Source of the DNA: Acholeplasmataceae bacterium
GTDB lineage: Bacteria; Bacillota_I; Bacilli_A; ML615J-28; CAG-313
DNA length: 62,135 nucleotides
Assembly: GCA_012838945.1 (NCBI GenBank)
Contig: DUOG01000031.1
Coordinates: forward strand, 1 to 62,135
Reading direction: 5' to 3'
The notes under the pieces were generated by a model. That model saw nothing but the letters and a program-made list of their open reading frames with translations. It made no database searches and had not been told where the DNA came from. Positions within the stretch are counted from its first letter, which is position 1. Each line of letters opens with the position of its first letter. Positions 8,756-49,890 of this stretch are shown in pieces. Both the position numbers and the translations under genes were made by a program.

Positions 8756-9589
8756 TTAGTGTTTGATAAACTTTAAACTAATATCTAAGGCTTTATAGGA
8801 ATGAGTAAGGGCTCCTACTGATATTAAATCTATTCCTAAAGCTGCTACGCTATAAACTCGTTTAATAGTCATATTGCCGCTTGCTTCTAGAAGTTTGCGT
8901 TTGTTGTTTATTTCTACTAATTCGGCCATTTGTTCATTAGTCATATTATCTAACATTATGATATCGCAATCAGTCTCTAACGCTTCTAAAAATTCGGCTT
9001 TGGTCTCAACTTCTACTTCAATTTTAATTCCCTTCTTCACTTTTTGTAAAGCTGTCTCGACAGCTTTTTTTATACTTCCCACCGCAGCAATATGATTATC
9101 CTTAATTAATACCTGATCACTTAAGTTAAATCGATGATTTGATCCACCACCATCAACAACTGCTTGTTTTTCTAATACTCTAATCAGTGGACTAGTCTTA
9201 CGGGTATCAACAATTTTACAATTTGTCCCCTCTACTTCTTGAACAAACTTAGAGGTTAAGGTTGCAATACCGCTCATTCGTTGTAAAATATTTAGTGCTA
9301 CCCGTTCTCCTCTTAAGATATCAGCCATGCTACCTTTGATGTGAGCAATGACATCACCTTTTTTCACAGCTGATTTTGATGGTTTTAAAATAGTAAATTC
9401 AATTTTAGGATTGATAAAATGAAAAACAGCTTGACATACTTCAATCCCAGAAATAATTCCACTAGCCTTAGCAATAAAATAACCCGTTGAAACAATCTTG
9501 GGATCGACTAGTGAACTTGTAGTTACATCATTAAGATATCCATCTTCATTTAAGGCTTCTTCAATAATTTTTAGTATTCGTTTATCCAT
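8756..9589 (-). CDS. nadC: Nicotinate-nucleotide pyrophosphorylase (carboxylating), QPRTase
   Basis: NadC converts quinolinate and PRPP to nicotinate mononucleotide, the third step of de novo NAD synthesis. Family signatures are NEDGYLNDVTT, LNILQRMSGIAT, DTRKTSP and KQAVVDGGGSNHRFNL in the first half, and IEVEVET and IMLDNMT in the barrel. I start at the ATG at 9589 (277 residues, normal length), one base after the nadB stop. An in-frame TTG at 9616 has a much better ribosome site (AAAGGAG, inside nadB) and would add nine residues. Third gene of nadABC. Confidence 0.95.
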   Translation of the reverse strand: MDKRILKIIEEALNEDGYLNDVTTSSLVDPKIVSTGYFIAKASGIISGIEVCQAVFHFINPKIEFTILKPSKSAVKKGDVIAHIKGSMADILRGERVALNILQRMSGIATLTSKFVQEVEGTNCKIVDTRKTSPLIRVLEKQAVVDGGGSNHRFNLSDQVLIKDNHIAAVGSIKKAVETALQKVKKGIKIEVEVETKAEFLEALETDCDIIMLDNMTNEQMAELVEINNKRKLLEASGNMTIKRVYSVAALGIDLISVGALTHSYKALDISLKFIKH

Positions 9590-9590
9590 A

Positions 9591-11084
9591 TTAATCTTCT
9601 CGGTAATGACAACCAATACTCTCCTTTCTTGTAAGTGCGGCTTTAATGATGGCCAAACTAACTGTTACCACATTTAAACACTCATAATAATCTTTTAAAT
9701 GACGAGGATTATTTACTAGATTTCTATAATAATTCTGAACGATTATTTCCGCATTTTTCAGTCCTTTTTCCGTCCTGATAATCCCTACTTCCCTGCTCAT
9801 GATGGATTGAACATCTAGTTTTATCGACTGATAATCAGCCTCTTCCTTGCTAATTTTAACCTGATCATCAGTTATATTTGTTATATTGATAATATTAAAA
9901 TTATTAATTGATTTAGCGATACGATTCCCAAAAACCACGCATTCCAGTAAAGAATTACTAGCTAAACGATTGGCACCATGAACACCAGAACTAGCACATT
10001 CACCATTAGCATATAAGTTTTTCGTGGAGGTTTTTCCATTTAAATCAATCTTGATTCCGCCAATTCCAAAGTGTTCTACTGGTGACACCGGAATCAAATC
10101 TTTTTCCATCTGGTAGCCACTTTCTAAACATTTGGCATAAATGGTTGGAAATCTCTTTTCTAAAAATGCCTTTCCTAAATGACGAGCATCGATAAATACA
10201 TAGTCACTTTCGGTAAGTTCAAGTTCGCGCACAATAGCACGAGATACCACATCACGGGGGGCTAATTCTAGCCGCTCATCATATTTTTCCATGAAACGTT
10301 GATAATAGCGATTGAGAAGAAAGGCTCCTTCACCACGAACAGCTTCACTGATTAGAAAACGAACTGATGATTCATTATTTACCCAAAATACGGTAGGGTG
10401 AAATTGGACGAACTCTAAATCTTGCACTTCTACTTGGGCACGGATTGCTGAGGCAATACCATCGCCAGTTGCGCATCGTGGATTAGTTGACGCTTGATAA
10501 AGTCCACCGATACCACCAGTTGCGATAACCGTAGCACCTGCTACCACTACAACATCTTTATTTTCCTTATTAATGAATTTTGCACCAAAACATTCATTGT
10601 CATTACACATTAAATCATACATCATATAGTCTTTTAAAAGAGTTATATTGGGACGATTTTTAAGATGATTAATTAATGTTTCCATAATCTTTCGTCCAGT
10701 TTGGTCTCCCCCAGCATGTAAAATTCGGCGATTTCGGTGCCCACCTTCTTTGGTAAAAGCAAGTTTTCCTTCATTATTTAAATCAAATGGAACCCCTAAC
10801 TCAATTAAACGTTCCAAGTTTTCTTTGGCTTCCTTGACTAGAACCTTTACTGCTTGAATATCATTTAAACCTGCTCCAGCAATCAGAGTATCCTCAACAT
10901 GCCCAGCAAGTACTTCTTCATCCACACAAATTTCCCCAGCAATCCCCCCTTGAGCAAGCCTCGAGTTGGAATCACTTTCTTTAGTAACGATTATAATTTT
11001 TTTGGATTCATTAATATTTAAGGCGGTGTAAATCCCTGCTAGACCACCTCCAATAATTAAAACATCACAAAAATAATTGTTCAT
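9591..11084 (-). CDS. nadB: L-aspartate oxidase
   Basis: This 497-residue flavoenzyme oxidises L-aspartate to iminoaspartate for quinolinate synthesis. The FAD-binding loop DVLIIGGGLAGIYTALN is at the N-terminus, SRLAQGGIAGE follows near residue 42, and HPTVF, RGEGAFLLN, HFGIGGIKID and GECASSGVHGANRLASNSL occur in the order of the succinate dehydrogenase/fumarate reductase flavoprotein fold. The C-terminal helical region is complete. It lies 2 bp after nadA and directly before nadC, so the three are one operon. Confidence 0.96.
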   Translation of the reverse strand: MNNYFCDVLIIGGGLAGIYTALNINESKKIIIVTKESDSNSRLAQGGIAGEICVDEEVLAGHVEDTLIAGAGLNDIQAVKVLVKEAKENLERLIELGVPFDLNNEGKLAFTKEGGHRNRRILHAGGDQTGRKIMETLINHLKNRPNITLLKDYMMYDLMCNDNECFGAKFINKENKDVVVVAGATVIATGGIGGLYQASTNPRCATGDGIASAIRAQVEVQDLEFVQFHPTVFWVNNESSVRFLISEAVRGEGAFLLNRYYQRFMEKYDERLELAPRDVVSRAIVRELELTESDYVFIDARHLGKAFLEKRFPTIYAKCLESGYQMEKDLIPVSPVEHFGIGGIKIDLNGKTSTKNLYANGECASSGVHGANRLASNSLLECVVFGNRIAKSINNFNIINITNITDDQVKISKEEADYQSIKLDVQSIMSREVGIIRTEKGLKNAEIIVQNYYRNLVNNPRHLKDYYECLNVVTVSLAIIKAALTRKESIGCHYRED

Positions 11085-11086
11085 AC

Positions 11087-11995
11087 CTAACTCAATTCTA
11101 GCATCTTATCCAATGCTTTAATAGCTTTCTTTTGAACATCTTCATCAACAAAGACTTCATTGGTATCATTTAAGAGGCAGTTATATAATTCAGTTAAAGT
11201 TGTTTCTTTCATACTATAACAAGTTAAATGTTCCGAAACGAGATAGAAGTTACGATCTGGATATTGCTTTTGGAGTTCATAAAGTATTCCACGTTCGGTT
11301 CCAATGATGAAATCTTGGCTTTGAACCCGACCAACAAAATCGATCATTTGTTTGGTACTACCAATAAAATCTGCTTTTCTCAAAACAGCTATTGGTGATT
11401 CGGGGTGAATAATAACCAACGCGGAAGGATGAGCCTTCTTCGCATCTTCTACCATCTTTTCAGTAATCCGATGATGAATGCCACAACAACCAGGCCACAA
11501 TTCCATATCCATATTTTCTACTGTATTAATATAAGTTCCTAAATTTTGATCCGGCAAATATAAAATTGGTTTTCCCTTATAGTGACTTATTACTTTTCGG
11601 GCATTTGAACTTGTCACACAAACATCACATAGAGCTTTTACCCTAGCTGAAGTGTTAACATAACCAATGATTACCGTATCTGGATTAGCCTCTTTATAAG
11701 CTTTGAGTGCCTCTTCATCTACCATGTCAGCCATTTCACAACCACCAACAGGGGCAGGAAGAAATACTCGCTTTTCTGGTGCTAAGATTTTGGCTGTTTC
11801 CGCCATAAAGCGAACACCACAAAAAACAATTCGTTCTGCGTTTGATTCCTTAGCAATTACACTTAAAGCATACGAATCGCCAACGTGGTCACATACTTCT
11901 TGAATTTCATCATTTTGATAATAATGTCCAATAATGAGGGCATTTTTTTCTTTTTTTAGTCGTAAAATTTCGTTTTTATAATCTATTTTTGTCAT
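11087..11995 (-). CDS. nadA: Quinolinate synthase (4Fe-4S)
   Basis: NadA condenses iminoaspartate with dihydroxyacetone phosphate to give quinolinate, using an oxygen-sensitive 4Fe-4S cluster. The 302-residue protein is of the usual short type. Motifs seen are IIGHYYQNDEIQEVCDHVGDS, with candidate cluster cysteines in IVFCGVRFMAETA, DVCVTSSNA and WPGCCGIHH, and YLPDQNLG for substrate binding. First gene of nadABC, with an AGGTGA ribosome site and an extended -10 promoter 20 bp upstream. No nearby NadR/NiaR-type regulator is present. Confidence 0.96.
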   Translation of the reverse strand: MTKIDYKNEILRLKKEKNALIIGHYYQNDEIQEVCDHVGDSYALSVIAKESNAERIVFCGVRFMAETAKILAPEKRVFLPAPVGGCEMADMVDEEALKAYKEANPDTVIIGYVNTSARVKALCDVCVTSSNARKVISHYKGKPILYLPDQNLGTYINTVENMDMELWPGCCGIHHRITEKMVEDAKKAHPSALVIIHPESPIAVLRKADFIGSTKQMIDFVGRVQSQDFIIGTERGILYELQKQYPDRNFYLVSEHLTCYSMKETTLTELYNCLLNDTNEVFVDEDVQKKAIKALDKMLELS

Positions 11996-16163: not shown

Positions 16164-16190
16164 AAAGAACCCGCAAGAAGGGTTCTTTTT
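16164..16190. terminator. Bidirectional terminator between rarA and the FtsK-like gene
   Basis: AAAGAACCC/GGGTTCTTT, a 9 bp perfect stem with a 7 nt loop, is flanked by T on the right. It ends at the stop codon of the convergent FtsK-like gene (16189-16191). Confidence 0.78.
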
Positions 16191-17907
16191 ATATTTCCTT
16201 TAAAATATTCTTTATTTCATTAATATCAATTTTCGTAGTAGCGATTCTAGCTATTTCTATTTTTCTTTTATAAATGGCATCATTTTCTTTTTCCAAGTTA
16301 GCAGCACTATCACTTCCTAAGATTTCAGTTGCGAGTTTAAACTCATTCCATAAAATAACTTTATCATCAAAAAGACTATTGAGCCGGGTTGAAAGTTTAA
16401 TATCTTCCATAACCGCTACAATCATCATTATTCCACACTTTTTTCCCGTATGTAATAAATAAATTATCTCTTCAATAGTTTGTGACTCATTAATAATATT
16501 TTCTAAACCTACCAATAAAATAACATGATATTCTAATGGTTCTGTTATTTGTGGGAGGCGGTTATATTCTTCGATGTTATTAACCCCCATACTACTTAAC
16601 TTTTCTAAGATTTCTTCTGTCTCATTTTTTAATGTCAATATTACTTCGGAAATTTCGGTATGGTATTCATCCACTTCCTTTAAATCCACTAAAAGTTTTT
16701 TGAGATCGATAATCGTCAAATTGAAACTTTCCGGTAAATTTTTGAAAAATAAAGATAATGTTATTGCTTTAAGGTAATTAATTATATTACTATCCTTATC
16801 TCCAATAATTAATAATGAGGAATTAGCTAATAAATTACTCTCCACAATTTCCTTTTTGTAGTTAAAACCTAAGGGTAATAAATAATTATTGAATAGATTT
16901 GTTTGGCCAAGCAGAGATTTTTTTAAGTATATTTTTTGGGGATAGGTATTATTTAATTCAATAGTAACTTGACCACTAATACTATCTATCTTTAATGAAA
17001 ATTGCTTTTCTAAAACTTCTTTTAATTTATTTGAGAGAATATTATGATCAATAAACATTTTGGTATCAATAATAAAAGTTGTTATGTGATAACTTATAAT
17101 AAATCTAACCTCTCGATAAAAGATGCCCATATTGTTTAAGATGGCACAAATGGTTCGCTTGATATTGCTGGCGTTGTTTTCTTCAAAATTGGCTTCTTTG
17201 TTTTCTTTAACATCATTTAATAGTTTAAGGGGTAAACGAATGCGGTTTCTTTTTGATTTCTTTTTATTTTTTAATTTTGGATCTTGTGTAATGCCATACT
17301 TTAAAGTGCTTATTAAATTTTTTGACTTTTGAAATCCACCTTTAGCGATATTAAATAAATCAATTGAAAACTCTTTTAATGTCTTTTTTAACATGAAAGC
17401 AATACCAACCACAAGTAAGAAACATGCAATGATAACGGCTCCCACGGCCCCAAACAATAGATAAAACAAATAAAAAAATGAGCCTCCAATAATCCCCCCA
17501 CCTAAGACCGCTTGGTCATTATAATATTTCAAATAGTGTCCATACATACTAATCGTCATTTGAATATGGTTTCCACCGATATTACTAACATAATTATGCA
17601 TTGGAAAATGAGAAATCGTAAGAAGACCTATCAAAAAAATGACAATTCCCATAAAACGCATTGTCTTTACTTCCATTGGTTGATGAAATAGTAAACTTCT
17701 AAAACCATAAACCAAGAGTAAAAATAGTGTTACAAAATACCAATCACCAAATAGTAGTTTAAAGAAAATCATTAACCACTTGCCGCTATTCCCTAAACGT
17801 GCTAAGGTTATGATTGAAATTAAAATAGTTATGATTCCGACTATTTCATAGTAAAAGGTTAATTCCTTCTTATCACCATCTTCTTTACGTTTTTTTTCTT
17901 TCCCCAT
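16189..17907 (-). CDS. FtsK/SpoIIIE-like protein with lost ATPase motifs and no gamma domain
   Basis: The ATG at 17907 follows GGGGTGAAATT, giving 572 residues (the longer reading to 17937 lacks a ribosome site). About four or five N-terminal membrane segments (~15-175) precede a linker and a region aligning by eye with the FtsK motor. Where FtsK has the Walker A GATGSGKS, this protein has LLIIGDKDSNIINYLKAI. The Walker B VIVDELADLM becomes HVILLVGLENII, although FNLTIIDLKKL (FtsK IDPKK) and the MGVNNIEEYN landmark (FtsK RNIEGYN) remain. The C-terminal DNA-reading gamma domain is absent. I infer a pseudo-translocase derived from FtsK/SpoIIIE, possibly keeping a structural role at septa. A divergent membrane protein with chance resemblance is less likely. 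Confidence 0.7.
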   Translation of the reverse strand: MGKEKKRKEDGDKKELTFYYEIVGIITILISIITLARLGNSGKWLMIFFKLLFGDWYFVTLFLLLVYGFRSLLFHQPMEVKTMRFMGIVIFLIGLLTISHFPMHNYVSNIGGNHIQMTISMYGHYLKYYNDQAVLGGGIIGGSFFYLFYLLFGAVGAVIIACFLLVVGIAFMLKKTLKEFSIDLFNIAKGGFQKSKNLISTLKYGITQDPKLKNKKKSKRNRIRLPLKLLNDVKENKEANFEENNASNIKRTICAILNNMGIFYREVRFIISYHITTFIIDTKMFIDHNILSNKLKEVLEKQFSLKIDSISGQVTIELNNTYPQKIYLKKSLLGQTNLFNNYLLPLGFNYKKEIVESNLLANSSLLIIGDKDSNIINYLKAITLSLFFKNLPESFNLTIIDLKKLLVDLKEVDEYHTEISEVILTLKNETEEILEKLSSMGVNNIEEYNRLPQITEPLEYHVILLVGLENIINESQTIEEIIYLLHTGKKCGIMMIVAVMEDIKLSTRLNSLFDDKVILWNEFKLATEILGSDSAANLEKENDAIYKRKIEIARIATTKIDINEIKNILKEI

Positions 17908-17980
17908 AATTTCACCCCGTATACTAATATTAAACAATACTAGTGTTGAAAATTAGCATATTGGGCGAAACATCAAGAGA

Positions 17981-18197: not shown

Positions 18198-18226
18198 ATT
18201 ATACTATAAATCTTGTTAAATTGCAA
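18198..18226 (-). promoter_or_regulatory. Promoter for rpmG
   Basis: TTGCAA (18221-18226) and TATAAT (18198-18203) on the minus strand are 17 nt apart. The element lies across the 3' end of the preceding 231-residue gene. Confidence 0.65.
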
Positions 18227-18894
18227 GGATTATCAAAATACTTTTTTATACTATTTTTAAATTTTTCAATATTATAGCGAAATTCTAGACAGTCATTAGC
18301 CTCTTTCGTTGTATTATCATCAAAAAAACGGCAGTTAGGGGTATATAAATACAATTTTTTAAGATTGTTTTTAATCACCAAAGATGATTCAGGTTTTTCA
18401 CAATATACAACGAAGGGAATTCCTAAGCGTTCTAGATACAAATCAACGTAATCACTTTGTTGATTTTGATTACTAATTAACACTCCTAAAAGACATTTTT
18501 CTGAATGGTAGAGACTACGAAAACTATCATAAAAGATATAACTAAGCCACCGAGAAGGATGAATGAAAAACTCACCAATTTTATAACTATAAAGATGAAT
18601 AATCAAAAATTCCTTTTTGGATATTACCTTTTTAACCACTTTTGCTTCAAGCATCTCACGAACAAAACAAAATATGTATTGTTGTTTATCCAATGAAAAG
18701 TAATTAAGATTAATAATCATTGTTGTATCTTTTATATAAGTAATTTCGCTTGAATTAAATACTTTTTTCATTAAGAAGTGAAATTTAAATGGATACTTTT
18801 GACACCAATCAATAATAAATTTTATAAAGGCTTTTTCAATATAATCATATTGGTAAAATGATAGGGTTAAGTCATCTTTGATTAAATAGTTCAT
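18199..18894 (-). CDS. Hypothetical protein, 231 residues
   Basis: I do not recognise this protein. It is soluble-looking, rich in Phe, Tyr and Lys, with no signal peptide, no clear membrane segment and no obvious motif. A cysteine pair occurs late (NPCNLTRF near the end, PNCRFF earlier) without a metal-site pattern. It lies 40 bp after rnjA on the same strand and before rpmG, so it may be the second gene of an rnjA transcript; no terminator is clear between them. The reading frame is long, uninterrupted and has the same AT-rich codon use as its neighbours, so it is probably real. Confidence 0.6.
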   Translation of the reverse strand: MNYLIKDDLTLSFYQYDYIEKAFIKFIIDWCQKYPFKFHFLMKKVFNSSEITYIKDTTMIINLNYFSLDKQQYIFCFVREMLEAKVVKKVISKKEFLIIHLYSYKIGEFFIHPSRWLSYIFYDSFRSLYHSEKCLLGVLISNQNQQSDYVDLYLERLGIPFVVYCEKPESSLVIKNNLKKLYLYTPNCRFFDDNTTKEANDCLEFRYNIEKFKNSIKKYFDNPCNLTRFIV

Positions 18895-20748: not shown

Positions 20749-22185
20749 TTAATTTTTCTTCTTGTTTTTAGAAAAAGGACGCATTGTATAAGGAAATCGG
20801 ATAACTTGACGAACCAATTTTCCCAATTTGAAAGGAACAAGAGGATAAAGGTATGGCCTTGTAAAACTTTTTAATGAAGCAAGATAAATAAATAACAAAA
20901 TTAAACCACCTATTAGTCCCCAAATATCAAAAAATAAAATCCCAATCAAAAGCAACAACTTTGAAATTTTATTGGCTAAACTTAATTCATAGCTTGGAGT
21001 AATATAAGAACCAATAGCTGAGATGGAACCTAACAAGACAATAATTTCAGTAAATAATCCTACTGTAATTGCTATCTCACCAATGATAACTCCAGCAACT
21101 AGACCCATAGCTGTGGAAAGTGAGTTAGGTGTATGAATCGAAGCCATTCGTAAAAATTCAATTCCTACTTCGGCTAGTATTATCTGAAAAAACACTTCAG
21201 TTCGAGTGTCATCTCCTATTTCAAACAAACCTCTAAAGAAAGCAGGAATGATATCCCGACTAGACAAGAGGGCAAACCATAAAGGTATTAATAAAAAGGA
21301 AGCAAAAATTCCAATAAAACGTAAAATCCTTAAGTAAGTTCCAGCTAATGGCGTTTGTCGATATTCTTCAGCATGTTGCATATGATCAAAGATAGATACC
21401 GGTCCTAAGATAACACTAGGTGATGTATCTACAATAATCGCAAACATTCCCTGATACAGATGGACTGATAATGTATCGGGTCTTTCAGTGTAGCGAACAA
21501 GCGGATAAGGCGAAAAATTTGATTCCAGTAGCAATTCTTCTAAGGCTTTATCACTCATTGTAATTTCATCAGTATCAATTTGTTTAAGGCGCAACTTTAC
21601 ATAATCAATAATTTTTTGGTCAACATAACCATCGATATAAGTCAAACAAAGATCAGTTTTACTGACTTTACCTACTTGATGATACTCCATTCTGAGTTTT
21701 CCGGTTCGAATACGGCGTCTAACCAAGGCAATATTTATCGCAAAGTTTTCGGTAAAACCATCGCGACTGCCACGGACTACCTTTTCACTATCCGGTTCAG
21801 CAATACTTCTTCCGGGATATTTTCTAATATCAAGAGTGATAGCTTCATCAGAATTCTCAACGATAATTGCTACTAAACCATTTAATACACTATTAACTAC
21901 CGAATCAATTTCCTTAGTTACCCCTACCGCATGATATGAAATATTTGCAAGTAATGAATTGAAAAAGGTATTTTGATTATTAGATGTATTTATCTCAAAT
22001 TTTAATAATCCATCAATAACTTCTGTTAATAAAGCTCCATCAATCATAAAGGTGAGAAAATATAAGCGAATTCGATGTCCTTGAATTAAGAAGTCGCGGG
22101 TATCAATATCAAAGGAGTAATCAATTCCCAATAAGTCATTAATCTGATCAGCATTTTGTTGATAATCTAATGATAAATTGGTCAC
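20749..22185 (-). CDS. spoVAF: Spore germination protein SpoVAF (GerA family)
   Basis: A 478-residue protein of the GerA/SpoVAF family, placed in the inner spore membrane and involved in germinant signalling and ion or dipicolinate release. The N-terminal soluble region carries FLIQGHRIRLYFLTFMIDG, the middle has the family block SPYPLVRYTERPD with VILGPVSIFDHMQ, and four to five hydrophobic segments follow (about 285-440). It ends with the conserved KSFTRPYLYPLVPF stretch. The gene is last in the spoVA run, 10 bp after spoVAE, matching the Bacillus order spoVAC-AD-AE-AF. Confidence 0.92.
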   Translation of the reverse strand: MTNLSLDYQQNADQINDLLGIDYSFDIDTRDFLIQGHRIRLYFLTFMIDGALLTEVIDGLLKFEINTSNNQNTFFNSLLANISYHAVGVTKEIDSVVNSVLNGLVAIIVENSDEAITLDIRKYPGRSIAEPDSEKVVRGSRDGFTENFAINIALVRRRIRTGKLRMEYHQVGKVSKTDLCLTYIDGYVDQKIIDYVKLRLKQIDTDEITMSDKALEELLLESNFSPYPLVRYTERPDTLSVHLYQGMFAIIVDTSPSVILGPVSIFDHMQHAEEYRQTPLAGTYLRILRFIGIFASFLLIPLWFALLSSRDIIPAFFRGLFEIGDDTRTEVFFQIILAEVGIEFLRMASIHTPNSLSTAMGLVAGVIIGEIAITVGLFTEIIVLLGSISAIGSYITPSYELSLANKISKLLLLIGILFFDIWGLIGGLILLFIYLASLKSFTRPYLYPLVPFKLGKLVRQVIRFPYTMRPFSKNKKKN

Positions 22186-22195
22186 AACATCACTT

Positions 22196-22555
22196 TTATC
22201 CTTTAGGCTTAAAGATCAATGCCGCAAAAAAAGCAAAGACAATGGCAGCAGTAATACCAGTTGCTGTGAGGGTAAAGATACCAGAAGCCAGTCCTAATAT
22301 ACCTTGACTGAGAGCCCCTTCTACCGCTGCTTGAGTAAGGGAATGACCAAAACTTGATATCGGTACTAAAGCACCCGCTCCACCAATTTCAACTAAATAA
22401 TCATAGATGTTAAAGAATTCTAAAAAAGCCCCTATCACTACAAATAATACCGTTATGTGAATGGGAAGTAATTTAAAATAATCTAACAATAATTGTCCTA
22501 TTAAACAAATCGTACCACCAATTAAAAACGCATATAAAAACGTACTGATTGGCAT
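22196..22555 (-). CDS. spoVAE: Stage V sporulation protein AE (SpoVAEB type)
   Basis: A 119-residue membrane protein with about three or four hydrophobic helices, part of the SpoVA channel that moves Ca-dipicolinic acid into and out of spores. It shows the family pattern FLIGGTICLIGQLLLDY and GALVPISSFGHSLTQAAVEGA near residue 60. It belongs to the same superfamily as SpoVAC: the GGxxCxxGQxLL and VPISxFxxS motifs are shared. It is placed directly after spoVAD (adjacent, no gap) and before spoVAF. The separate soluble spoVAEA gene of Bacillus is missing. Confidence 0.93.
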   Translation of the reverse strand: MPISTFLYAFLIGGTICLIGQLLLDYFKLLPIHITVLFVVIGAFLEFFNIYDYLVEIGGAGALVPISSFGHSLTQAAVEGALSQGILGLASGIFTLTATGITAAIVFAFFAALIFKPKG

Positions 22556-23563
22556 TTAATCAATCCTTTCTAGTGATATTGCATGTGCAATTCCCGGAAT
22601 AGTTTCTTTTTGAGCAGTGACGATTGGATTAAGGAGTGCTCCTGTAGCCACAATTAGGGCTTTTTTTATTGCGCCAGTAAGTAATTGGTGATAAATATAA
22701 CTATAACTAACGATTCCACAACAGCCACATCCACTTCCCCCAGCAAACACTGGTTGAGTATTAATATCAAAAATCATCAAACCACAATCATTGTAATTGG
22801 CACTGACATTATAATTATGAAGTTCTAAAATCTCTCTTAACACTTTTGAACCATATTTAGATAAATCGCCAGTTACTATCAAATCATATTCACTTGGTCC
22901 AATGTTAAAGTCCTCGAAGTGATCTATAATAGTTTGGGCGGCTGATGGAGCCATTGATCGCCCTAAATCGGAAGCATTTTTAATTTTAGGATCATAAACC
23001 CGTCCAATTGTTGCTCTCTTAACTTGAATAGGGCTTCTAATATTAGTCAAAAGCCCAGCAGCAGCTCCAGTAACCGTATATGTCGTCTCTGGTGGTTTCT
23101 GACCGCCATATTCAGTTGGATTTCGAAATTGACGTTCGCTAGTAGCGTTATGAGAACTCGTAGTACATATGATTTTACTTCCAAACCCACCATCAATGAA
23201 AGCAGAACCAATAAGTAGCCCTTCTACACTGGTTGAACAAGCACCGTAGATTCCCAAATAAGGAGCACCAAGATCACGCATTACGTAGTTACTGATAACA
23301 ACTTGATTAATTAAATCACCAGCTAAAATACAATCAATATCCTTGATATCTAAATTAGCTTTATCTAGTAAAAGATCAATTGCGTCTGCCATTAAGCGCA
23401 TTTCGGCCTTTTCCCAACTATCTTCACCACAATATAAATCTTGATAGCTCTTATCAAAATATCCGCCTAAAGGTCCTTGTTTCTCCAAAGCACCCGTTAC
23501 AGTAGTCGTTTCTGCCAGAAAAGCGTTCTCAAATTCTAAGCTATATTTTCCTACTTTACCCAT
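22556..23563 (-). CDS. spoVAD: Stage V sporulation protein AD
   Basis: A 335-residue soluble protein with a thiolase-like fold that binds dipicolinic acid at the spore inner membrane for uptake. The start KYSLEFENAFLAETTTVTG and the segments QGPLGGYFD, GIYGACSTSVEGLLIG and ICTTSSHNATSERQFR are typical of SpoVAD, and the end holds SGCGCCGIV. It retains a Cys where thiolases have the nucleophile (GACST), but the family is not catalytic as far as known. It sits between spoVAC and spoVAE with 2 bp and 0 bp gaps. Confidence 0.95.
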   Translation of the reverse strand: MGKVGKYSLEFENAFLAETTTVTGALEKQGPLGGYFDKSYQDLYCGEDSWEKAEMRLMADAIDLLLDKANLDIKDIDCILAGDLINQVVISNYVMRDLGAPYLGIYGACSTSVEGLLIGSAFIDGGFGSKIICTTSSHNATSERQFRNPTEYGGQKPPETTYTVTGAAAGLLTNIRSPIQVKRATIGRVYDPKIKNASDLGRSMAPSAAQTIIDHFEDFNIGPSEYDLIVTGDLSKYGSKVLREILELHNYNVSANYNDCGLMIFDINTQPVFAGGSGCGCCGIVSYSYIYHQLLTGAIKKALIVATGALLNPIVTAQKETIPGIAHAISLERID

Positions 23564-23565
23564 GA

Positions 23566-24009
23566 TTATATCCCAATCCTAAATACATATTTGATAAAAC
23601 CAAAGACAATTGCTGACACTACACCAGCAGTTATTACCGCCCCTGCCAATTTAAAAAGATTCGTCATAATACCTAAAACAAGACCCTCACTCTTACTTTC
23701 AATTGCTGCCGAAGCCATTGAATTAGCGAATCCGCTAATTGGCACCAGTGTTCCCACTCCAGCGTATTGCCCGATTTTATCATAAATACCTAATCCGGTT
23801 AACACAACCGAAATAAAAACAATTGTAACTGACATTAAACTAATGGCTTGGGCTCGATCTAATTTAATCTCATATTGATATAGCCAAAGGAGAAATTGAC
23901 CAAAAACACAAATTAGACCACCGACAAAAAAGGCTCTAATACAATTTTTAAGGATTGGTCTTTTTACTTCATTTTGCTTTAAAACGTCTTGAACTATACT
24001 TTTTTTCAT
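23566..24009 (-). CDS. spoVAC: Stage V sporulation protein AC
   Basis: A 147-residue membrane protein of the dipicolinate channel; in Bacillus SpoVAC behaves as a mechanosensitive channel. About three to four hydrophobic segments, with RAFFVGGLICVFGQFLLWLY near 26-45 and GTLVPISGFANSMASAAIES near 85-104, match the family. It is the first spoVA gene here: spoVAA and spoVAB, found upstream in Bacillus, are missing. A forespore-type promoter lies 15-44 bp upstream and an AGGTGAT ribosome site precedes the ATG. Confidence 0.94.
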   Translation of the reverse strand: MKKSIVQDVLKQNEVKRPILKNCIRAFFVGGLICVFGQFLLWLYQYEIKLDRAQAISLMSVTIVFISVVLTGLGIYDKIGQYAGVGTLVPISGFANSMASAAIESKSEGLVLGIMTNLFKLAGAVITAGVVSAIVFGFIKYVFRIGI

Positions 24010-24023
24010 ATTATCACCTATGA

Positions 24024-24053
24024 TATTTTGTCGCTTTTAGTGTTAAATTATGC
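24024..24053 (-). promoter_or_regulatory. Forespore (sigma-G/sigma-F-like) promoter for spoVAC
   Basis: On the minus strand GCATA (24049-24053) is 18 nt from CAAAATA (24024-24030). The sigma-G consensus is GHATR-18-CATNNTA; only one fixed -10 base differs. It falls between the sigF terminator and spoVAC. Confidence 0.6.
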
Positions 24054-24079
24054 AAAAAAGGCTAATCAACCGATTAACC
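24054..24079 (-). terminator. Terminator at the sigF stop codon
   Basis: On the minus strand GGTTAATC-GGTT-GATTAGCC (8 bp, one G-T) is followed by six T. The sigF stop (24074-24076) lies inside the stem, separating the spoIIA and spoVA transcripts. Confidence 0.7.
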
Positions 24080-24679
24080 TTTCCTTAATTTATTCATAAT
24101 TTTTTTCAGTTTTCGAGAAATTGTTGTTTGCGATAATTTCAATCGCTTGGCTATTTCACTTTGACTTAAATTCTCATAAAATCTCAATTTAATTAACCGC
24201 TCTTCATTAGGAGTAAGGATACTAAAGTCAATGGAATTTTTATTAAAAAAGGGAATGGTAATTCCCAGATTCTCTATTTTATCAAGTGAGATCACACCAG
24301 AAACATGACCACAGGCAATGGCCACATTTTCCACAGTTGTATTGTATTTGGTTGCCATTTCTTGATAACTCAAGCAATCATTTTCAAAAGCAATTGATTT
24401 TATTAGTGGTTGAAAATAAGTGCTTATCCTGATAATCCGATCTTGTCGCAACTCTTTTTTAATATTCCCAACAATAAAAGGCATTGCATATGTGCTAAAG
24501 GCAAAACCTTTAGAATTATCAAAACGTTGTGCCGCTTTAAATAAACCCATTAATCCAGCTTGGATTAAGTCATCACGATCAAAACTACTGACCTTTAGTT
24601 TATTGACAACCTTATATACTAATCCGATATTAGTTCTTACAACTTCCTCACTATTTATAGGTGAGATCGGAGTCCTCAT
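24074..24679 (-). CDS. sigF: Sporulation sigma factor, SigF (SpoIIAC) type
   Basis: An RNA polymerase sigma-70 family factor. Region 2 is clear: NIGLVYKVVNKL, DRDDLIQAGLMGLFKAAQRF and FSTYAMPFIVGNIKKELRQD. Region 4 ends the protein with EERLIKLRFYENLSQSEIA and an HTH (KRLKLSQTTISRKLKKI). Region 3 is poorly conserved. From the ATG at 24679 it has 201 residues, about 50 fewer than B. subtilis SigF, lacking the N-terminal part before the NxxLV helix. The start overlaps spoIIAB by 29 bp and lacks a good ribosome site; an upstream in-frame start at 24742 would overlap more. Position after spoIIAA-spoIIAB supports SigF over SigG. Confidence 0.88.
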   Translation of the reverse strand: MRTPISPINSEEVVRTNIGLVYKVVNKLKVSSFDRDDLIQAGLMGLFKAAQRFDNSKGFAFSTYAMPFIVGNIKKELRQDRIIRISTYFQPLIKSIAFENDCLSYQEMATKYNTTVENVAIACGHVSGVISLDKIENLGITIPFFNKNSIDFSILTPNEERLIKLRFYENLSQSEIAKRLKLSQTTISRKLKKIMNKLRKG

Positions 24680-25100
24680 ATCTTTTAACCATATGGACTT
24701 TGGTTCCTTCATTAACGGTTGATTCGATTTCAAAATCGTCACTAAAGACTTCCATAATAGTGAACCCTAAACCCGCTCGCTCTTCTTCTGGGAGCGTAGA
24801 GAATAGTGGTTCTTTGGCTTTTTCTAAATCTGGTATGCCCACCCCATAGTCAATTACATCAATTCTGATTTCCTTGTCATCATAGGAAAGATGCATTTCT
24901 ACATCTTTAGTACGAACATTTTTATATCCATGGATAATAGCATTAGTAACAGCTTCAGAAACTAAGGTTTTAACCTCACTTATAACATTTAAATTTAAGT
25001 TAAGATTCATTAAAAAACTAACTGCTACTGCTCTCGCAAACGTGACATTTTCATGTCTTGATTTAAATCTAACCATCATTTCATTTGTAACTTCACTCAT
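24651..25100 (-). CDS. spoIIAB: Anti-sigma F factor and kinase SpoIIAB
   Basis: A 149-residue GHKL-fold serine kinase that holds SigF inactive and phosphorylates SpoIIAA. The N box VSEAVTNAIIHGYKN (~47-61), the G1 box IDVIDYGVGIPD (~74-85) and the G2 box ERAGLGFTIM (~106-115) are intact, and the start SEVTNEMMVRFKSRHENVTF resembles Bacillus SpoIIAB. The start overlaps the spoIIAA stop as TAATG. The end overlaps sigF, consistent with stoichiometric coupling of the anti-sigma and sigma factors. Confidence 0.95.
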   Translation of the reverse strand: MSEVTNEMMVRFKSRHENVTFARAVAVSFLMNLNLNLNVISEVKTLVSEAVTNAIIHGYKNVRTKDVEMHLSYDDKEIRIDVIDYGVGIPDLEKAKEPLFSTLPEEERAGLGFTIMEVFSDDFEIESTVNEGTKVHMVKRYEDSDLTYK

Positions 25101-25450
25101 TAGGCGACCTCCAAAAATTCTTGCGCTTCATCTTCATCTCGAGCAATTAAGCATATTTTTCTTAAACCCGATAGATTAACTAAACGCATAATCAAATCAT
25201 TAATGGAACATAAGACGATTTTTCCCGACCTTTTTTTCAATTGCGAGAACCGCCCAATAATATAACCGATGCCGCTACTATCCATAAAGGATAACTTCTC
25301 AAAGTTGAGAATCAAATGTTTGATATAATACTTTTCAAGGATCTCACATGTTCTAATCTTCAAAGACTCACATGTCATATGATCCAATTCACCATTAAAT
25401 CGAATAAAAAGGATATTTCTTTTAATCCCCATTTGTATACTTAGCCCCAT
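25100..25450 (-). CDS. spoIIAA: Anti-anti-sigma factor SpoIIAA
   Basis: A 116-residue STAS-domain protein. Unphosphorylated SpoIIAA removes SpoIIAB from SigF in the forespore. The phosphorylation site motif FMDSSGIGYIIGRF (Ser near 58-59) is intact, and the start MGLSIQMGIKRNILFIRFNG parallels Bacillus SpoIIAA, which supports the ATG at 25450 even though the AAGGA lies directly against it. First gene of spoIIAA-AB-sigF, with a sigma-H-type promoter about 90 bp upstream. Confidence 0.95.
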   Translation of the reverse strand: MGLSIQMGIKRNILFIRFNGELDHMTCESLKIRTCEILEKYYIKHLILNFEKLSFMDSSGIGYIIGRFSQLKKRSGKIVLCSINDLIMRLVNLSGLRKICLIARDEDEAQEFLEVA

Positions 25451-25540
25451 TCCTTATCACCGATTATATTTTAGCACACCACAATGCGAAAGAAAATGGA
25501 GATTATAAAAAAATTACAATAATTTTTTTCTAATTGATAA

Positions 25541-25568
25541 ATTCAAATCAAATTTGGTTAAATCCTAT
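25541..25568 (-). promoter_or_regulatory. Sigma-H-like promoter for spoIIAA-spoIIAB-sigF
   Basis: On the minus strand ATAGGATTT (25560-25568) is 12 nt from TTTGAAT (25541-25547). The sigma-H consensus RNAGGAWWW-N11/12-HGAAT is met in full. It lies in the 142 bp gap between dacF and spoIIAA, as in Bacillus. Confidence 0.62.
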
Positions 25569-25592
25569 CAATCCTTGTCAAACACCATCAAT

Positions 25593-26756
25593 TTATGTAT
25601 TTAAAAATATTTCTTGGAAAATGAGAAACAACAAATCTAAAAAACTAGTTTTTTGAATTGGTTTCTCCAAATTAAGCTCAATTTTTGCATATAGTTCATT
25701 ATCATAATAAACATCTAATGTTCCAATATTTCGGTTATAAAAATTTTTTATTCTATCATAATCAATCTTAGTTTCATACCGAAATTCTTTTAAATTTTCT
25801 CCCTTAGGAATGACGACATTGATATCACAACTAGTTACAATATCTTGATGGTAAGGGGTTATGGTGATATCAGTTATTGAATCGACTACGGTCCCTTTGG
25901 GAATTAATACTTTGGTTTCGAAATTACTGAAAGCATAATTTAACATCGCCATCGTCTCATTAGAACGAATACTAGTTGTTGGTTCCCCCATGATAACACT
26001 AATAACTCTCATTCCGTTTTTCTTCATGGTTGCGGTTAAACAATAACCCGCTTCTTCAGTCCATCCTGTTTTTAAGCCATCAACTCCGGGAACAAAACGA
26101 ACTAGTTTATTGGTATTGACTAACCAAAATCTCTTTTCCGGAGTATCTTCTCGGACATAATCTTCATATATCTTAGTTATTTCTAAAATATTTTCATGTT
26201 TTAAAATTAACTCGCGAGCCATAATAGCCATATCGCGACTACTGGAATAATGATTATGGGCCGGAAGTCCCGTACAATTAACAAAGTTGGTGTTTTTTAA
26301 ACCTAACCTTGATGCTTCTTTATTCATCATCGCAACAAAGTTTTCTTCACTACCGCTAATTCGTTCAGCTAGGGCGACTGATGCATCATTGGCCGAGGCA
26401 ATAGCAATTGATTTTATTAAATCTTTCACCTTCATCTGCTCATTAACCGATAAAAAAATGCGCGTTCCAATTTGCTTTGATGCATATTCAGAAGTCGTAA
26501 CCATCTCCTCTAGATCAATTCTTTTACTCTCAACTGCATCCAAGATCAACTTTAAAGTCATAATTTTAGTCATACTGGCCGGTGGTCTTCTAAGATCAGG
26601 TTCTTTACTATAAAGAATCGTACCGGTGCTTGCTTCCATTAAGATTGCGCTTTTCCCAACCTTGACTAACCCAATATCATTTTGAGCATGTACTTTCCCG
26701 GTAGTACCCAAAACAATTGTTAATATCATTAACATTATCATTAATGTTTTTTTCAT
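25593..26756 (-). CDS. dacF: D-alanyl-D-alanine carboxypeptidase, DacF type
   Basis: A 387-residue secreted low-molecular-weight penicillin-binding protein that trims D-Ala from peptidoglycan stem peptides; DacF controls spore cortex cross-linking. The signal peptide covers about the first 24 residues (LMIMLMILTIVLGTTGKVHAQ). The catalytic motifs are RPPASMTKIM (SxxK, ~58-67), IASANDAS (SxN) and GLKTGWTEEAGY (KTG). The PBP5-type C-terminal domain and an amphipathic tail follow. It is placed upstream of spoIIAA as in Bacillus and ends in KTSFLDLLFLIFQEIF. Confidence 0.92.
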   Translation of the reverse strand: MKKTLMIMLMILTIVLGTTGKVHAQNDIGLVKVGKSAILMEASTGTILYSKEPDLRRPPASMTKIMTLKLILDAVESKRIDLEEMVTTSEYASKQIGTRIFLSVNEQMKVKDLIKSIAIASANDASVALAERISGSEENFVAMMNKEASRLGLKNTNFVNCTGLPAHNHYSSSRDMAIMARELILKHENILEITKIYEDYVREDTPEKRFWLVNTNKLVRFVPGVDGLKTGWTEEAGYCLTATMKKNGMRVISVIMGEPTTSIRSNETMAMLNYAFSNFETKVLIPKGTVVDSITDITITPYHQDIVTSCDINVVIPKGENLKEFRYETKIDYDRIKNFYNRNIGTLDVYYDNELYAKIELNLEKPIQKTSFLDLLFLIFQEIFLNT

Positions 26757-48463: not shown

Positions 48464-48820
48464 CTAATTTGTAATTAATGAATTAATGACATCATTATGA
48501 CTCTTATCTAAAAGAGAAAATTTAAACAAAACGATTGTTTGATCATCTAATAGTGACTCTAAGACATATCTCAAATATTCATTACTATCACAGTGAATGA
48601 TTCGATGCGGGTCCATCGCCAACTCTAAGGCTCGTTCCCCTATTAATTTTGAATCATCATCTAAGGTGATGAGGTAATCCACATCATAATTAAAAAGCAT
48701 TCTCGCAATTTCCCGGTAGTACTTCTTTTCATGAGCCCCTAAATAGTTAATCTTCCCTAGGACCACCACCTTTTTCTTATCCCTTCCTTGGTCTCTAAGC
48801 ACTTTAAGAGCTGCTTTCAT
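48464..48820 (-). CDS. Orphan MurF-like C-terminal domain
   Basis: A 118-residue protein from the ATG at 48820, which overlaps the TGA of the ATP-grasp gene (ATGA). It resembles only the C-terminal (third) domain of MurF: MKAALKVLRDQGRDKKKVVVLGK, then YREIARMLFNYDVDYLI and YLRYVLESLLDDQTIVLFK. The MurF landmarks are weakened: VVGDMxELG is VVVLGKINYLG, and the KGSR motif is KFSLLDK. Upstream codons ASCS before the Met also fit MurF, so a TTG at 48835 is possible. Without its ATP and UDP-muramoyl domains it cannot ligate by itself. I infer a partner of the ATP-grasp protein or a relic. Confidence 0.6.
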   Translation of the reverse strand: MKAALKVLRDQGRDKKKVVVLGKINYLGAHEKKYYREIARMLFNYDVDYLITLDDDSKLIGERALELAMDPHRIIHCDSNEYLRYVLESLLDDQTIVLFKFSLLDKSHNDVINSLITN

Positions 48821-49752
48821 TGAACAGGACGCCAATTAACTTCATAAATCCAAATCTTTTGATTTTCATCCAAACCAATATCTAATCCTAATTCATCAAA
48901 CTGATGAGGGTAGAGAGTATCAAAATGTTCCCCGAATCTCAAACTGAAGACTTCCAGATAACGTTTAATATAAAAATGTTCTTCTTCAAACTCATCTTCT
49001 AAAAAGCAATCAAAAAGCGTTGTCAGTCCCCCTTGACTCAAATTTGTCGCAATTCGTTTGTTAGAGCCAATCCGAGGATATATCATCGTAATACCCCATT
49101 TTCCCTTATCATCTTTTTGTAAGTTAATCCGAAAGTCATATGCTTCCCCAGTCTTCCGACAACTATTAATAAACTTTTGCATTATCATTTGTTCTTTAAT
49201 ATTATCTAAATAATTGTCCAACTTATCCTTAGTAAACTCATTGTTGGTATATGAGTCTTGAACCAGATAAAGATCATCTAACTTCTGAATTGTGATTAGG
49301 TCTTCACCATGATGACCTGATATCGGTTTTAAAATGATTTTTTGATGTTCATCTAAAAAGGTATATACCGAATCTGGCCCCTTCATTACCGCATACGGAA
49401 TCAAATAATCTTTAAATACCTTCCCCTTTTCAATCCGACGATAGACTTCATCTTTATCTCCGACTGAATAACTAGTAACCGGTATTAGTTTTTTCAGTTT
49501 GTTGTATACCTTACCTTGAAAACGGGTTTTGGGACTAACATTATTGATAAAGATATCGGGAAAAGGACATTCGTACCAAACCCAACGTCCTCCTTGATAA
49601 CATCTTCCTCTAATTGTTTTTCGTTCAAAGTTTACTCCTCGAGCCGTAAAGTAAATGAACCTCACACCTTCACCATTACAAATCATATTATATAAGTAAG
49701 CCCGTGATACCTTATTTGGATCTTTCCGGGTATGAAACATTCCAATAATCAT
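48817..49752 (-). CDS. YheC/YheD-type ATP-grasp protein
   Basis: A 311-residue protein from the ATG at 49752 with AAGGTG at 6 nt. The start MIIGMFHTRKDP, YPDIFINNVSPKT-type region, KIILKPISGHHGEDLITI, MQKFINSCRKTGEAYDFRI and the C-terminal IWIYEVNWRPVQ match the YheC/YheD ATP-grasp family, called endospore coat-associated in Bacillus. Such enzymes are predicted amide ligases. The next gene encodes a MurF-like domain in a translationally coupled frame, echoing ATP-grasp plus Mur-ligase pairings. Function inferred from the spore setting. Confidence 0.75.
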   Translation of the reverse strand: MIIGMFHTRKDPNKVSRAYLYNMICNGEGVRFIYFTARGVNFERKTIRGRCYQGGRWVWYECPFPDIFINNVSPKTRFQGKVYNKLKKLIPVTSYSVGDKDEVYRRIEKGKVFKDYLIPYAVMKGPDSVYTFLDEHQKIILKPISGHHGEDLITIQKLDDLYLVQDSYTNNEFTKDKLDNYLDNIKEQMIMQKFINSCRKTGEAYDFRINLQKDDKGKWGITMIYPRIGSNKRIATNLSQGGLTTLFDCFLEDEFEEEHFYIKRYLEVFSLRFGEHFDTLYPHQFDELGLDIGLDENQKIWIYEVNWRPVQ

Positions 49753-49890
49753 AACTAACACCTTCTGTAATATACTATGATATTTTATAAAGTACGTATG
49801 GACTTATTAAACAGTAGGCAATATCATTCTCAATCGAATGATTCACAACATAAACTATAATGCTTACATTTTAAATTTAAGGAGTCAATA

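Follow-up and report, generated by a model that had tools for sequence, protein, structure and literature searches.

A dacF-spoIIA-spoVA sporulation cluster with a short, fast-evolving sigma F in a family of genome-reduced, uncultured Bacilli

In Bacillus subtilis the genes of the dacF-spoIIA operon are followed by those of spoVA, with a terminator between sigF and spoVA and a forespore promoter that belongs to spoVA itself. The same gene order, terminator and promoter arrangement, together with the genes of the SpoIIAA/SpoIIAB partner switch, recur in the stretch of DNA considered here, a contig of 62,135 nucleotides (DUOG01000031.1; contig C124 in our numbering, hereafter the window) from the metagenome-assembled genome GCA_012838945.1 of an Acholeplasmataceae bacterium (1.69 Mb in 149 contigs, 96.6% complete). 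The window differs from B. subtilis in being without spoVAA, spoVAB, spoVAEA and SpoIIIAE, in a highly divergent SigF of about 200 amino acids (aa) where B. subtilis has 255 aa, and in a sigma-H-type promoter that is not conserved in relatives. Clostridia and Candidatus Arthromitus, whose spoVA sets are reduced, likewise have the universal spoVAC, spoVAD and spoVAE, and Candidatus Arthromitus also combines a small genome with the four sporulation sigma factors (Galperin 2012, PMC3533761); in contrast, SpoVAF is kept in the window, the SpoIIIA proteins are kept in Arthromitus, and the window SigF lies far under the cut-off of its family. Sigma F itself is listed as common to every spore-forming member of the bacilli and clostridia (PMC3533761).

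Closer to the window stand RF39, RFN20, ML615J-28 and Anaeroplasmataceae, reduced Bacilli genomes near Mycoplasmatota with about 25 or more sporulation genes (Field 2024, PMC10868615). That survey scores gene presence and absence; sigF is absent from its main text and no SigF domain loss is described. The Mycoplasmatota bacterium strain zrk6 (CP074575) shares the order spoIIAA-AB-sigF-spoVAC-AD-AE-AF, a short SigF (184 aa) and a SpoVAD 60% identical to that of the window, but belongs to another family and order, and other genes separate its dacF from spoIIAA. It is very probable, in our view, that the window carries the orthologous spoIIA operon with a reduced spoVA operon behind it, both vertically inherited in a family of genome-reduced, uncultured Bacilli in which the classical switch is being remodelled. 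The type of cluster is already known; the novelty lies in the domain-by-domain loss of SigF, which we did not find in the open-access papers searched, nor any report there of a truncated SigF in a spore former, although earlier reports may exist.

Profile matches were judged by NCBIfam equivalog (TIGR models) and Pfam cut-offs, and the comparison set comprised 60 relatives, 40 of them high-quality genomes; most assemblies are fragmented, zrk6 and perhaps one or two others being the exceptions. The window's own genome was covered by searches and chosen stretches. The window SigF does not reach the SigF equivalog cut-off and is called SigF by position only; the sigma G of the same genome fits the SigF model better (277 bits versus 106 bits). 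The first-pass annotation, made from the sequence of the window, had rightly listed sigF but overlooked its divergence and shortness. The true start is likely the ATG at 24679, giving a protein of 201 aa, because the N-terminal stretch of the longer open reading frame (ORF) is absent in relatives and the shorter protein gives a short overlap with spoIIAB like theirs. Region 3 and the linker are short, 54 of the 70 sigma-3 positions aligning to Bacillus SigF, and an AlphaFold model (pLDDT 77) retains regions 2 and 4 and a short three-helix region 3, so that the protein may still be functional. A PDB fold search with this model returned generic sigma factors only; its TM-scores were low, as one would predict for a chain of several domains that is flexible.

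With the window protein as reference, mean identity among 10 genomes of its family is 35.9% for SigF, against 56.5% for SpoIIAA, 56.1% for SpoIIAB, 55.2% for SpoVAC and, in the same genomes, 71.4% for sigE and 73.5% for sigG. This ranking is reversed in Bacillaceae and Sporolactobacillus, where, among four cluster proteins compared, SigF ranks first in conservation. SigF also has the higher ratio of non-synonymous to synonymous substitution rates (dN/dS) in the pairs with usable dS. Placed on a tree of other proteins, SigF measures 241 and 223 aa in the outgroups, 205-224 aa in the sister family, 181-184 aa in the family of zrk6, 187-201 aa in that of the window (the window protein counted as 201), 169-174 aa in two congeneric species and, in three species forming one clade (support 98/98), 79-101 aa. 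Along the tree SigF becomes shorter, and in some species with the other spore genes still in place one domain is all that is left of it. In the solved complex, SigF Asp148 sits at the SpoIIAB/SpoIIAA interface (PMC7340262). With the residue identified from that paper and our alignment, the window protein has Asn at this acidic SpoIIAB-contact position; across the window's order and zrk6's family SigF has Asn, Thr, Lys or Gln there, and some members of the order lack the position altogether. With SigF short, fast-evolving and deprived of a contact residue, and with sigma G, SpoIIAA, SpoIIAB and the promoters of the forespore genes conserved, the constraint on SigF would be weaker in this lineage than in any spore former studied in depth.

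The cluster around this gene consists of eight ORFs, all in one direction on the minus strand, and the ORFs and family matches bear out the genes and order of the dacF-spoIIA-spoVA cluster in the first-pass annotation (Table 1). SpoIIAA, SpoIIAB and SigF are adjacent in spoIIA order; SpoIIAA scores slightly under its equivalog cut-off, its identity being backed by its position and STAS domain, and it retains the phospho-serine motif MDSSGIG. The assignment of DacF, as opposed to other S11 enzymes, is presumed from a position ahead of spoIIAA common to Bacillus and the relatives. SpoVAC, SpoVAD and SpoVAE each score above the equivalog cut-off, and within the cluster there is no ORF for SpoVAA, SpoVAB or SpoVAEA, which the same comparison detects in Bacillus loci, so the claimed lack of these three genes stands. 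The reduced spoVA set is of a known kind, because spoVAC, spoVAD and spoVAEB occur in all spore formers, as had also been claimed, and the remaining spoVA genes in fewer (Galperin 2012, PMC3533761).

Consensus sites for sigma G (GHATR-N17-19-CATNMTA), sigma F and sigma H (RNAGGAWWW-N11-12-RNNGAATWW) were scored upstream of spoVAC and spoIIAA against dinucleotide shuffles, in the own genome and relatives. The terminator proposed between sigF and spoVAC corresponds to a stable hairpin followed by six T residues, which a simple consensus terminator scan did not list. The sigma-G/F-like promoter proposed ahead of spoVAC also holds: besides its score in the window, a sigma-G-type site is conserved across 18 genomes, mostly 40-70 nucleotides before the start (combined p 1.6e-8, an optimistic value given that some of these genomes are close kin). 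The same type of promoter precedes spoIIR (combined p 5e-6), and similar sites, judged by eye, precede sigG. The conserved promoter thereby supports the view that spoVA is switched on late, under a forespore sigma factor. The sigma-H-like promoter proposed ahead of spoIIAA fared only in part, the site being present in the window but showing no conservation across 22 genomes (combined p 0.87). A syntenic sigH candidate (L184 2222-2755) lies between rlmB and secE-nusG, the interval that holds sigH in B. subtilis; its region 2 is recognisable, its region 4 is not, and with 45-57 bits versus a cut-off of 295 it is extremely divergent. With no conservation of the site and so divergent a protein as the sole candidate for sigH, a sigma-H reading of spoIIAA is not supported. 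A sigma-70-like match (TTCGCA-16-TATAAT, 25490-25463) also lies ahead of spoIIAA, such matches being no commoner across the region than in shuffles, and Spo0A boxes were dropped as a common promoter element there (p 0.24).

Judging from the protein families, SpoIIAB would keep a forespore sigma factor in check up to the point, once the cell has divided asymmetrically, at which SpoIIE dephosphorylates SpoIIAA. On the evidence of sequence and conservation, spoIIA transcripts are predicted to end at the hairpin behind sigF, and a new start at the forespore sigma-G-type promoter to serve spoVAC-AD-AE-AF, which comprise the genes of the dipicolinate channel plus spoVAF. Signs that this switch is being remodelled are the small size of SigF, its rate of change far above that of its partners and its loss of one SpoIIAB contact, set against the conservation of sigma G, SpoIIAA, SpoIIAB and the promoters of the forespore genes.

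The own genome contains spo0A, spoIIE, spoIIGA, sigE and sigG, so the absence of spo0A, sigE and sigG, which would have refuted the first-pass proposal, is not observed. The Spo0A C-terminal domain was found by search; SpoIIE, at a contig end, matches nearly the full model; a SpoIIGA-sigE-sigG block lies behind ftsZ; sigK is above its curated cut-off; SpoIIR and SpoIVA are intact; SpoIVB is above cut-off, immediately ahead of spo0A; and a gene for a GerE-like regulator adjoins uvrC. Spo0A and SpoIVA are both above cut-off in 19 of the 40 high-quality genomes, 18 of which also have SpoIIAB above cut-off and one (G019) a shortened match; the remaining high-quality genomes have none of the three above cut-off, except for one Spo0A-type match (G051). 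G006, a lower-quality member of the window's family, has Spo0A without SpoIVA, SpoIIAB or SpoIIR. Because they are kept or lost together in well-assembled relatives, nearly as a unit, the sporulation genes are under selection in the lineage.

Several points weigh against the proposal of an inherited and remodelled sporulation cluster. Relaxed constraint need not be the reason why SigF evolves so fast; a changed promoter code, for example, could also lie behind it. In the own assembly a frameshift in the receiver domain interrupts the reading frame of spo0A, leaving two overlapping ORFs (L001 1456-2248, contig C30). This break is recent or an assembly error, because the frame is open in every other relative listed with this type of match and both halves are still similar to those of the relatives G003 and G004 (53-58% for the N-terminal and 65-69% for the C-terminal piece). 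SpoIIIAE, the one SpoIIIA component looked for, is essential in B. subtilis; neither the own genome nor its order yielded it, and among all relatives searched it turned up in one class-level genome only. The spoIIIA genes are also lacking in sporulating Erysipelotrichia (PMC3749518). The earlier view that sporulation is maintained and temporally controlled is partly supported: gene retention and the spoVA promoter speak for it, sigma-H control of spoIIAA does not, and while the gene set is retained, the competence of this strain is uncertain given the broken spo0A.

Were control fully canonical, with sigma H at spoIIAA, an ordinary sigma F, and sigma G at spoVA, the divergence of SigF would be part of fast evolution throughout the genome. 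Gene order and operon limits are as in Bacillus, the window SigF retains regions 2, 3 and 4, and the sigma-H-type site is present (p 0.01); nevertheless we consider such control unlikely, for sigE, sigG, SpoIIAA and SpoIIAB of the same genomes are less divergent than SigF, the sigma-H-type site is not conserved, and three relatives with the other genes still present have a SigF cut down to region 2. That the strain no longer sporulates and the cluster is a decaying remnant would agree with the broken spo0A, a genome of 1.69 Mb and several relatives in the order that have lost the set entirely, but it is quite improbable given that all ORFs of the cluster are intact, as are SpoIVA, SpoIIE, SpoIIR, sigE, sigG, sigK and SpoIVB, and that spo0A is open elsewhere and its pieces remain similar to those of relatives.

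The three shortest SigF proteins have only Sigma70_r2 above cut-off, and most of these genomes being fragmented, errors of assembly or gene calling come to mind. It is scarcely credible, though, that such artefacts explain them: the region-2-only ORF occurs in all three species of the clade, overlaps the end of spoIIAB with spoVAC close behind and is followed by no sigma-4 remnant in any of three frames; the chance of each open frame is about 1e-4 to 1e-5; and a short SigF is also encoded in the complete chromosome of zrk6. B. subtilis has a two-part sigma factor, RsoA with SigO, and the stub could likewise be one half of such a pair, with region 4 on another protein. Its size and single domain would fit, as would a frame kept by selection, the stub having a dN/dS of 0.35-0.40 versus 0.05-0.14 for its neighbours and, in the closest pair, 0.11 versus <=0.01, values that are rough since dS is high and near saturation in most pairs. 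A region-4 search of five genomes found no unassigned region-4-only protein confined to the region-2-only species. The small region-4 protein that had been a candidate partner was dropped as a GerE-like helix-turn-helix protein adjoining uvrC, which is present in all species of that search, in species with a two-domain SigF and in the window genome, and we regard a split sigma factor as very improbable. The region-2-only species retain intact SpoIIAA/AB, SpoIVA, SpoIIR, sigE and sigG, and also have SpoIIE and Spo0A.

The remodelling that we favour may have a direction. SpoIIAB of B. subtilis binds sigma G besides sigma F, and the sigma G substitution E156K is refractory to SpoIIAB (PMC3174212). 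In the lineage studied here, SigG has Asp at the position of E156 in 20 of 21 genomes, the SpoIIAB Arg is invariant, and the window SpoIIAB retains Arg at the position of B. subtilis R20. Numbering followed B. subtilis SigG, the published positions N45 and E156 having landed on the correct letters. Together with the sigma-G-type promoters at spoIIR, sigG and spoVAC, these residue swaps fit a SpoIIAB switch moving from sigma F to sigma G. We tentatively suggest, as a possibility short of an even chance, that in the forespore programme of the family two sigma factors are giving way to one: SpoIIAB, under the control of SpoIIE and SpoIIAA, would now mainly hold sigma G, the reader of all forespore promoters, and sigma F would be dismantled domain by domain, to a region-2 stub in one clade, while sporulation is kept. 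Gene content, divergence, truncation, promoter conservation and residue swaps are seen in the sequences themselves; the protein binding and the takeover by sigma G are what we infer.

At L108 3668-4442 and in the sigE-sigG gaps of 20 relatives, thus in all 21 genomes, read-through RNA forms a hairpin that hides either the ribosome site or the start codon of sigG. The pairing differs in the genus whose SigF has collapsed: there the Shine-Dalgarno sequence is open and the start codon is paired instead. Loss of the ribosome-site hairpin was dropped as a sign of takeover, the block to read-through being kept throughout. This sequestration weighs against a simple sigma G takeover, since a first reading of sigG from its own promoter should still be necessary, and leaky expression plus autoregulation would be required. 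The SigF series, from a full protein to one domain with regulators and sigma G conserved, would be a test case for the reason why spore formers employ two forespore sigma factors in succession and for what SpoIIAB requires to hold a client, and the cultured relative zrk6, with its short SigF, makes parts of the question testable now.

Table 1. Genes and regulatory elements of the cluster, with positions in the window.
Feature	Position	Strand	Evidence
spoVAF (GerA family), 478 aa	20749..22185	-	PF03323 462 bits; SpoVAF position as in Bacillus and zrk6
spoVAE (spoVAEB type), 119 aa	22196..22555	-	TIGR02839 141 bits, cut-off 131
spoVAD, 335 aa	22556..23563	-	TIGR02845 449 bits, cut-off 412
spoVAC, 147 aa	23566..24009	-	TIGR02838 173 bits, cut-off 164
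Sigma-G/F-type promoter ahead of spoVAC, GCATA-N18-CAAAATA	24024..24053	-	p 0.015 against shuffles in the window
Terminator hairpin at sigF end, then TTTTTT	24058..24081	-	-10.6 kcal/mol, z -4.3
sigF, 222-aa ORF	24074..24742	-	TIGR02885 105.7 bits, cut-off 321.45; regions 2 and 4 above Pfam cut-offs
spoIIAB, anti-sigma F kinase, 149 aa	24651..25100	-	TIGR01925 175 bits, cut-off 135
spoIIAA, anti-anti-sigma factor, 116 aa	25100..25450	-	TIGR02886 109.1 bits, cut-off 114.75; STAS PF01740
Sigma-H-type promoter candidate ahead of spoIIAA, ATAGGATTT-N12-TTTGAAT	25541..25568	-	14 matches, p 0.01 against shuffles
dacF-like D-Ala-D-Ala carboxypeptidase (peptidase S11), 387 aa	25593..26756	-	Pfam PF00768 271 bits

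In other uncultured Bacilli (loci such as L049, L058 and L084) spoIIAA lies immediately ahead of sigF without spoIIAB in between, in agreement with the reported rarity of spoIIAB in RF39. Elsewhere in the window, an ORF at 16189-17937 (minus strand) encodes a membrane protein that resembles FtsK/SpoIIIE but whose motor domain is degenerate (18.9 bits, below cut-off), and relatives have similar weak matches of 550-650 aa; a SpoIIIE defect was ruled out, as a normal FtsK/SpoIIIE is found on contig C134. Between this FtsK-like gene and RNase J, the location of tepA in Bacillus, a 231-aa ORF at 18199-18894 (minus strand) has no Pfam match. At 48464-49761 (minus strand) a YheC/D-type ATP-grasp gene, of a family linked to spore coats, overlaps an ORF matching the C-terminal Mur ligase domain. 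An apparent nadC-nadB-nadA block for de novo NAD synthesis, as read from the sequences, occupies 8756-11995 (minus strand) and is unexpected in a strongly reduced genome.

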